Assembly (NCBI RefSeq): GCF_014641495.1
Contig: NZ_BMHV01000010.1
Location: 1-64,000, forward strand
Length of the DNA: 64,000 nt
Reading direction: 5' to 3'
DNA from: Terasakiella brassicae
GTDB taxonomy: Bacteria; Pseudomonadota; Alphaproteobacteria; Rhodospirillales; Terasakiellaceae
How positions within the stretch are numbered: position 1 is the stretch's first letter; each line of letters opens with the position of its first letter. This document shows, piece after piece, positions 2,591-4,668 of this stretch. The notes below the pieces were generated by a model that did no database searches, had not been told where the DNA came from, and saw only the letters and a list, made by a program, of their open reading frames with translations. The position numbers were made by a program, and so were the translations under genes.

Positions 2591-2844
2591 TTATTGTGTT
2601 GCCGTTTCACGGCACGGCGTGATTTCTGACAAATCAACTTTGGTGACAGACATGTCGTAAGCATTTTGCAAACGCAGCCAAAATTCCACGGTTGTACCAA
2701 AAAACTTGGACAGGCGCATGGCGGTTTCTACCGTAATCGCACGTTCGCCATTGACGATTGCAGTCATGCGATTGACGGGGACATGAAGTTCTTTTGCCAA
2801 ACGATATGTTGTCATATCCAGTGGTTTCAGAAAATTTTCCAGAA
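2591..2844 (-). pseudogene. HigA-type antitoxin remnant truncated at a tRNA 3' end
   Basis: The frame encodes a Cro/C1-type helix-turn-helix of the HigA (VapI) antitoxin family: FLKPLDMTTYRLAKELHV, then a second helix with VNRM, then NGERAITVETAMRLSKFFGT and EFWLRLQNAYD. Full-length HigA proteins have about 20 more residues ahead of FLKPL. Here those are missing, because the upstream bases are the 3' end of tRNA-Arg(CCU), whose CCA ends at 2845. The first internal ATG (2813-2815, 74 residues) has no ribosome-binding site. No HigB toxin gene is next to it. I read this as a gene cut by tRNA-directed integration. A frame reaching back into the tRNA is open, so expression as a fusion cannot be excluded. 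Confidence 0.65.
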
Positions 2845-3138
2845 TGGTGTCCCCGAGAGGATTCGAACCTCCGGCCCTCAGATTCATACCCGCTACGGCT
2901 TTCGCCGCCACCGCGAACTTGCGGCTTTGTGGTCTGGACTTTCTCTTTGCCTTATCCCGAAGGACGTAGGCACCGCCCGTCAAGTCTCTGCACCTTCCCG
3001 AATGTTTTCGGGCTTGGCTCAGGATTACCAGTTTAAAGGCTTCCCTGAGTTTGAGCGGATTCATTAAGGCGTTTCCAACCTTAATGCCCAATTTCTCTTT
3101 TAGGAATCTGATGCTCTATCCTGCTGAGCTACGGGGAC
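2845..3138 (-). tRNA. tRNA-Arg(CCU), split by a group I intron
   Basis: The 5' exon is 3102-3138: acceptor GTCCCCG, D arm GCTC/GAGC, anticodon stem TCAGA and loop up to the anticodon CCT. The 3' exon is 2845-2884: AA of the loop, stem TCTGA, T arm GGAGG-TTCGAAT-CCTCT, acceptor CGGGGAC, discriminator A and an encoded CCA. Joined, they give a 77-nt tRNA with fully paired acceptor and anticodon stems. The interruption lies between positions 36 and 37, the site known for the intron in Agrobacterium tRNA-Arg(CCU). Sequence downstream of the CCA is a truncated antitoxin gene, as expected for an integration site. Confidence 0.95.
2885..3101 (-). ncRNA. Group I (IC3-type) self-splicing intron in tRNA-Arg(CCU)
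   Basis: A 217-nt intron. It follows a U (last base of the anticodon) and ends in G (2885), as group I introns do. A GGG at 3087-3089 can pair with the anticodon CCU to make P1 with the required U-G wobble. A perfect 8-bp hairpin (CATTAAGG at 3079-3086 with CCTTAATG at 3062-3069) fits P2. Core blocks match those I recall from the Anabaena tRNA-Leu intron: AATCCTGAGCCAAGCC at 3011-3026 (P4-P6), GGTGCAGAGACTTGACGGG at 2976-2994 (P6/P7) and AAAGAGAAAGTCCAGACC at 2931-2948. There is no homing endonuclease reading frame. Splicing activity is inferred. Confidence 0.93.
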
Positions 3139-3180
3139 ACTTAGGGCAAAATAGCAAAAAACCATCCAAAAGCAAGTTAC

Positions 3181-3217
3181 AAAAAAAGCAGGCTATACAG
3201 ATAACTGTAAGCCTGCT
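3181..3217 (-). terminator. Rho-independent terminator of the DUF411 gene
   Basis: Reading the minus strand, AGCAGGCT pairs with AGCCTGCT, with a further TACAG/CTGTA pairing inside and an ATAA-type loop, followed by seven T residues. It lies 40 bases after the stop of the DUF411 gene and upstream of the tRNA. Confidence 0.85.
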
Positions 3218-3256
3218 GTGAGGTTGTCGGTGGGGGATTATTGGCCTTTTTTTAAA

Positions 3257-3697
3257 TCAGTGACGGGCAAAGGCGCTCATATTATTGTCTTCGTCAAAGA
3301 GAACGGTAACATAGTTGTCTTTCATGCCGCCCTGTTCCATGCCTGGTGAGCCCATCGGCATACCCGGGGCGGACAGGCCTTTGGCCTTGGGGCGTTCTTT
3401 AAGAAGGCGTTTTACGTCATCTGCCGGAACATGGCCTTCAACCACATAGCCGTCGATCATGGCGGTGTGGCAGGATTCCAGTTGTTCGGGGACGCCCATT
3501 TCTTTTTTGATGGTGTCCATATCTTCGCGTTTAATTTCCGTGACAGTAAAGCCATTGTCGCGCATATGTTCACTCCAGGCCGTACAACAGCCACAATAAG
3601 GCGACTTGTAAACGGTCACGTCTGTGGCGTGCGCATGTGTGAAAGCGGCGCTCATAAGAAAAACGCCGAGGATGGAAAAGAGTCTTAAGTACGTCAT
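3257..3697 (-). CDS. DUF411 periplasmic metal-binding protein
   Basis: 146 residues from the ATG at 3695-3697, which has an AAAGGA ribosome-binding site; a longer frame to 3724 lacks one. A Sec signal peptide (LFSILGVFLMSAAFTHAHA) precedes a thioredoxin-like DUF411 domain: VTVYKSPYCGCCTAW with the CGCC cysteines, later SCHTAMIDGYVVEGHVPADD and a Met-rich segment GMPMGSPGMEQGGM. DUF411 proteins are often found near copper resistance genes and are thought to bind metal in the periplasm. No copper genes are adjacent here. It is a single-gene unit with its own terminator. Confidence 0.85.
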   Translation of the reverse strand: MTYLRLFSILGVFLMSAAFTHAHATDVTVYKSPYCGCCTAWSEHMRDNGFTVTEIKREDMDTIKKEMGVPEQLESCHTAMIDGYVVEGHVPADDVKRLLKERPKAKGLSAPGMPMGSPGMEQGGMKDNYVTVLFDEDNNMSAFARH

Positions 3698-3801
3698 CTG
3701 AATGTCCTTTCGTCGGATTGTCACAAGAAAACATTATAATTAAGACCGAATTGTGACTTTCGCGTTGCTGGAAGGTTGAAAAAATAGGTATAAATCGCCC
3801 C

Positions 3802-4668
3802 ATGACAGAGATAACAACCCTGCGCCCCGTTATTCTGGCCGGTGGATCGGGCACGCGCCTGCAACCGCTGTCCAGTGAAGGGCGACCAAAACAGTTCCTG
3901 CCTTTGTTGGATGACGACAGCCCCTTTCAGGAGGCACTGGAACGCATTGATATAGCTGAATGCCTGCTCCCCTTGGTCATTGCAAATGTCCGCCTGAAAG
4001 ACCTTGTTCTGGAACAGGCCGATGATATCGCCTTTGATCTGGAAGACCTGTTGTTGGAGGTCGAAGGCAAAAACACCTTGGCGGCCTGTTTAAGTGCCGC
4101 CCTTTGGGCACAGGTGCGCGGGGAAAATTATCCCTTATTGATTTGTCCCAGCGACCATTTCATTGGTGATGAAACAGCCTTTTCGCGCGCCGTGATTGAT
4201 GCGGCAAGTGCGGCAGAAAATGGCTGGATCGTCACCTTTGGGGCCGTGGCAGACCGACCTGTCACCCATTATGGCTATATCGAGGTCGGCACCCGCCTGC
4301 ATGCCGGTTATAGCGGACATAAGGTCGAACGTTTTGTTGAAAAACCCGATGAAGAAACCGCCCGCGATTTACTGGCACAAGGGCGTTTTGTTTGGAATGC
4401 CGGTATATTTTGCGTCACACCGGAAACCTTGATTAAACTGGCCCAAACCCATTGCCCGGATATTTTACAGGCCTGCGAGGAAGCACTGAAACACAATCAG
4501 GATGGCATTCTGGATTATGGCCCCTGTGCATCGCAATCCCTTGATGTGGCCATTCTGGAAAAAACAGATCAGTGCGCGGTGGTGTCCCTGCTGACGTCAT
4601 GGTCTGACCTTGGGACATGGCCCGGAATTTGGAAAGCCCTGCAATTAATCGCCGATCAGTCGGAATAG
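3802..4668 (+). CDS. Mannose-1-phosphate guanylyltransferase-like sugar nucleotidyltransferase
   Basis: 288 residues. The N-terminus carries the nucleotidyltransferase signature GGSGTRLQPLSSEGRPKQFL (about residues 14-33), followed by the CPSDHFI metal-site region, FVEKPDEETA and WNAGIFC, all typical of ManC/RfbM GTP:mannose-1-phosphate guanylyltransferases. It stops after the catalytic domain and lacks the C-terminal cupin isomerase half of bifunctional ManC (about 470 residues) and the beta-helix of shorter GMPs. The likely product is GDP-mannose for surface polysaccharide, but substrate choice is inferred. Its 3' end overlaps the convergent peptidase gene by 13 bases. Confidence 0.85.
   Translation: MTEITTLRPVILAGGSGTRLQPLSSEGRPKQFLPLLDDDSPFQEALERIDIAECLLPLVIANVRLKDLVLEQADDIAFDLEDLLLEVEGKNTLAACLSAALWAQVRGENYPLLICPSDHFIGDETAFSRAVIDAASAAENGWIVTFGAVADRPVTHYGYIEVGTRLHAGYSGHKVERFVEKPDEETARDLLAQGRFVWNAGIFCVTPETLIKLAQTHCPDILQACEEALKHNQDGILDYGPCASQSLDVAILEKTDQCAVVSLLTSWSDLGTWPGIWKALQLIADQSE

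Follow-up and report, generated by a model that had tools for sequence, protein, structure and literature searches.

A compact group I intron in the anticodon loop of tRNA-Arg(CCU) of Terasakiella brassicae, found in one of six congeneric species

In the genome of Terasakiella brassicae a single tRNA-Arg(CCU) gene was found, and its anticodon loop is interrupted by what we conclude, with a probability of about 95 %, is a compact self-splicing group I intron, probably of the IC3 type. The gene lies on the minus strand (3138-2845) of the 64,000 nt stretch of DNA analysed here (the window), and is interrupted between positions 36 and 37 by 217 nt (3101-2885). An earlier sequence-only reading had placed an intron of this length at this position, leaving the strand unstated, and its proposal was confirmed by a covariance model, an intron-aware tRNA search, empty orthologous sites in related genomes, and covariation. 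The intron is real yet ordinary, and is notable mainly for its absence at this place in five sister species.

ARAGORN run in intron mode, a check that the earlier reading had suggested, recovers a tRNA-Arg(cct) with a 217 nt intron, reported as i(38,217), between a 5' exon ending in ...CAGATTCCT and a 3' exon beginning with AATCTGAGG... (intron termini in Table 1). When introns were disallowed, the same program did not find the gene. Joined without the insert, the exons form a complete tRNA-Arg(CCU) fold with an encoded CCA, in line with the claim that they are intact. No second CCU tRNA was present among 30 typed tRNA loci, the highest-scoring of 43 tRNA matches in the genome, and no further full match to the spliced tRNA-Arg(CCU) sequence was found in the genome; a tRNA-Arg(UCU) is present. 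The intron explains the failure of a standard tRNA search on the only CCU tRNA found in this genome.

The insert matches the Rfam model Intron_gpI (RF00028) over the whole of the model (model 1-253; window 3111-2912, minus strand) at 68.4 bits, with an E value of 3.1e-15 in 64 kb. The gathering score of RF00028 is 50, so the covariance search proposed in the sequence-only reading gave a score above threshold, and the match is the only one across the 3.6 Mb genome. The hallmarks of a group I intron are all there, namely the core helices P1-P9, a U.G pair in P1, a terminal G, and GAAA loops in L2 and L9, and the columns that are invariant among aligned introns are kept. P1 is formed as had been supposed, by pairing of the anticodon with the guide GGG (U3102.G3089, C3103-G3088 and C3104-G3087), which places a U.G wobble at the 5' splice site.

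For a count of covariation, a pseudoknotted structure was written from the window sequence and applied to 51 related introns. In a core of 39 pairs, a chosen set from which poorly kept pairs such as the outermost P4 pair and the variable P9 stem were left out, 95.7 % of cells were paired and double changes were seen in 26 pairs; a wider count of 50 pairs gave 77.0 % paired, with P6 and P6a one column off. None of 500 shuffles reached any of the measures, and sliding the partner by one column reduced the paired fraction to 43.5 % or less. The counted pairs of P4, P5, P7 and P8 were formed in all 51 introns. Together with the whole-model match, this covariation bears out the claim of a complete group I core. 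The host tRNA, the GAAA loops in P2 and P9 and the compact core fit the IC3 label, which is a tentative assignment. A homing endonuclease had been said to be absent, and a Pfam search of the three frames that overlap the intron gave no endonuclease match; the longest open frame through the intron continues into the downstream HTH gene. That gene (2591-2848, minus strand), which is HigA-like, begins right at the 3' end of the tRNA, seemingly lacks the usual N-terminus and has no adjoining partner gene; its frame stays open backwards through both the tRNA-Arg(CCU) and the intron.

Table 1. Features of the interrupted tRNA-Arg(CCU) gene, in window coordinates and in the order in which they are transcribed
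Feature	Positions	Strand	Basis
5' exon of tRNA-Arg(CCU), to position 36, end ...ATTCCT; anticodon CCU = 3104-3102	3102-3138	-	ARAGORN, intron mode
Group I intron, 217 nt, AAAAGAG...GGGTATG, conserved terminal G at 2885	2885-3101	-	Rfam RF00028, 68.4 bits; ARAGORN; empty site in four sister species
UU, potential partner of intron AA (P1 extension) or of 3' exon AA (P10)	3091-3090	-	Sequence
Internal guide sequence GGG; P1 with anticodon CCU, U.G at splice site	3087-3089	-	Sequence; guide-anticodon loop pairing in 51/51 aligned introns
P2 hairpin, loop with GAAA	3062-3086	-	Double changes in 7/7 counted pairs; 86 % of cells paired
P3 (3058-3053 with 2978-2973), pseudoknotted with P7	2973-3058	-	6 pairs; 96 % of cells paired; double changes in 4
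P4 (3048-3044 with 3023-3019) around P5, short loop	3019-3048	-	Counted P4 and P5 pairs, 100 % of cells paired
P6 and P6a	2993-3017	-	99 % and 95 % of cells paired
P7 (2986-2982 with 2941-2937); guanosine-binding helix by analogy	2937-2986	-	100 % of cells paired; double changes in 2 pairs
P8	2949-2971	-	3 counted pairs; 100 % of cells paired
P9 domain, GGC-GAAA-GCC hairpin (GAAA loop)	2888-2933	-	Counted pairs, 95 % of cells paired
3' exon of tRNA-Arg(CCU), position 37 onward, CCA encoded	2845-2884	-	ARAGORN

The locus was compared with those of five other genomes of the same genus (G001-G005). In four of them (G001, G002, G003 and G005), the orthologous tRNA-Arg(CCU) runs without interruption across exactly this junction, and sequence similar to the genes upstream of the tRNA in the window adjoins it, apart from the DUF411 gene, which is unmatched in G005. 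Since the orthologous tRNA lacks the insert in four congeners, the insert is not a chance reading of the sequence. At this site the intron is thus present in one of six congeneric species and in none of the five sisters; G001 carries a group I intron in its tRNA-Leu(UAA) instead, its Arg(CCU) site being empty. The stems of tRNA-Arg(CCU) differ between the sister species by double changes that keep the pairing, the interrupted gene included, which speaks for use of the spliced tRNA.

In group I introns, splicing is started by a guanosine bound in P7, and in the second step the 5' exon attacks the junction behind the terminal G. For the precursor RNA of the window this would mean that the intron core folds and that an external guanosine, bound in P7, attacks the junction behind U36, which the U.G pair of P1 holds in place; the freed 5' exon would next attack behind the terminal G (2885), so that U36 and A37 are joined and the CCU anticodon loop is restored. 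This guanosine-initiated chemistry is predicted for the window RNA by analogy with group I introns in general and with the same-site intron in Bartonella bacilliformis tRNA-Arg(CCU), for which splicing has been demonstrated both in vivo and in vitro and which is self-splicing (PMC7717549). From the intact core, the compensatory exon changes relative to the sister species and the proven splicing of the Bartonella intron, we infer that the window intron is very probably active.

The window intron does sit on a long branch (0.75) of the tree described below, and shares at most 73 % identity with any relative in that tree, so that efficient self-splicing could have been lost. A tRNA-Arg(UCU) occurs in the genome and might read AGG, and hence an unspliced tRNA-Arg(CCU) need not be lethal. 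It could therefore be argued that this is a degenerate group I intron which keeps its fold but splices poorly, leaving the tRNA gene silent and AGG to tRNA-Arg(UCU). Every core helix and the invariant columns are retained, however, and the exon pairing has been preserved by double changes relative to the sister species, and we consider decay of this kind very improbable.

In the fifth congener, G004 (locus L081, G004:C49, about 2906-4440), an insert of approximately 1.4 kb, with TTCCTAATCC at both ends, splits the tRNA-Arg(CCU) at the anticodon loop. Within this insert lie a complete spare tRNA-Arg(CCU) and a gene matching PD40 (beta-propeller), and it looks like what is left of an integrated element. 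As to integration beside the tRNA, no integrase was apparent, as judged by eye, in the adjoining frames of the three sister stretches read. That the window insert is likewise an integrative element disrupting the anticodon loop, and not an intron, is scarcely credible given that it is only 217 nt long, includes a full group I core without a spare tRNA or a gene of its own, and has both the RF00028 match and the covariation in its favour as an intron.

The same intron at the same site is already known and is widespread in the Alphaproteobacteria (Agrobacterium, Bartonella, Methylobacterium, Azospirillum and Acetobacteraceae). The sequence-only reading had correctly cited proteobacterial introns in tRNA-Arg and tRNA-Ile, leaving unsaid that the exact host and site are those of a known alphaproteobacterial family, attributed in PMC7717549 to Paquin et al. 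(1999). A scan of the named genome collection with a degenerate pattern describing the 3' portion of Arg(CCU) introns gave at least 119 matching stretches, from genera that include Agrobacterium, Bartonella, Methylobacterium, Microvirga, Azospirillum, Skermanella, Magnetospirillum, Gluconobacter, Acetobacter and Rhodobacter. When set against the 80 matches listed, which were read at their splice sites, the window intron has the insertion after U36 and the guide GGG of the family. With the introns of Agrobacterium and BbgpI of B. bacilliformis (PMC7717549) it shares its host, the 36/37 site, the guide, the terminal G, a size of around 200-250 nt, the core fold, the lack of an endonuclease and a sporadic distribution. 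It differs from them in its low identity (at most about 72-73 %), its long branch, its occurrence in one of the six congeners compared, and a short P5 loop, in which it resembles the Leu(UAA) and Thr introns of the same order.

The tRNA-Leu(UAA) introns of cyanobacteria, plastids and many alphaproteobacteria also have a compact core, an anticodon-loop host and GAAA loops, but they lie at 34/35 and use the guide GAG. The IC3 intron in the tRNA-Ile(CAU) of Azoarcus is described as a further compact tRNA intron without an ORF, in a different host tRNA.

RF00028 matches were found in 32 of 199 genomes drawn from the same order and in 31 of 385 drawn from the class. Judged by exon sequence, the hosts are Leu(CAA) at 33/34, Leu(UAA) and Arg(UCU) at 34/35, Lys(CUU, UUU) at 35/36 (one UUU case being called at 34/35), and Arg(CCU) and Thr(CGU, UGU, GGU) at 36/37. 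At least nine tRNA anticodons serve as hosts for related introns in the class, with the guide matched to each, and among the 51 aligned introns the guide follows the host (CCU-GGG, CUU-GAG, CGU-GCG, UGU-GCA and GGU-GCC).

Several individual cases were recorded in the course of this survey. The intron in tRNA-Arg(UCU) at 34/35 (L080, G092) is the sole case of this host seen. In three genomes from two families (L057 in G066, L061 in G149 and L252 in G696), group I introns that are 89-90 % identical apparently interrupt tRNA-Leu(CAA) in its D-loop instead of its anticodon loop, with the layout ...GGAACTGGT, about 230 nt, AGACGCG...; in the two cases where the exons were joined without the intron, the tRNA-Leu(CAA) was complete. 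Two of these three genomes have the 5' half of another tRNA-Leu(CAA) directly upstream, and G149 has a phage-integrase match below threshold on the downstream side. An enterobacterial resistance plasmid (L242, CP041648.1, 2501-2638) has, near aac(3)-IId, a tRNA-Leu(UAA) interrupted by a related group I intron, the core of which is 76 % identical to the window intron; the 299-base query has some match in 1,273 plasmid records, of which one was read for this arrangement. In the Pelagibacter phage HTVC120P (L243, 2001-2088), a stretch that is 76 % identical to the intron core, and below the Rfam gathering score, is flanked on either side by a CDS annotated as capsid protein, which gives the impression of a capsid gene split by a related group I intron. 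The tRNA-Leu(UAA) intron of L091 (G276) has a very different, A+T-rich make-up and by far the longest branch of the tree, and may represent plastid DNA within a binned genome.

The tree was built once from 109 introns, with the guide omitted and with near-duplicates and two odd rows removed. Hosts are strongly clustered on it (17 changes versus 45.8 when shuffled), and the Arg(CCU) label requires at least three gains or losses, even when well-supported branches alone are counted. There is no supported set around the long branch of the window intron, where long branches meet, and the tree gives it no supported place either inside or outside the main Arg(CCU) group. By region, the window intron is nearer to the Arg(CCU) introns in the guide-P2-P3 part and nearer to the Leu/Thr introns in P4-P6, though these stretches are short and the short P5 loop alone could cause the Leu/Thr likeness in P4-P6. 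An origin outside the main Arg(CCU) group, either as an independent arrival or as a mosaic at the CCU site with an Arg(CCU)-like guide-P2-P3 and a Leu/Thr-like P4-P6, is conceivable, but we regard it as unlikely. If true, it would be one case of repeated retargeting among tRNA anticodon loops through changes in the guide. As to its presence in this genus, either the intron was gained by this lineage, probably horizontally, or it was lost in its sisters.

The additions made here to a known family are modest, namely the presence of the intron in one of six congeners and the occupation class-wide of at least nine anticodons, with the guide matched each time. The genus provides a clean case of patchy presence, with one species containing the intron and four with empty sites. 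Combined with the range of hosts across the class, this case could serve as a test of how introns that lack an endonuclease move between tRNA genes.
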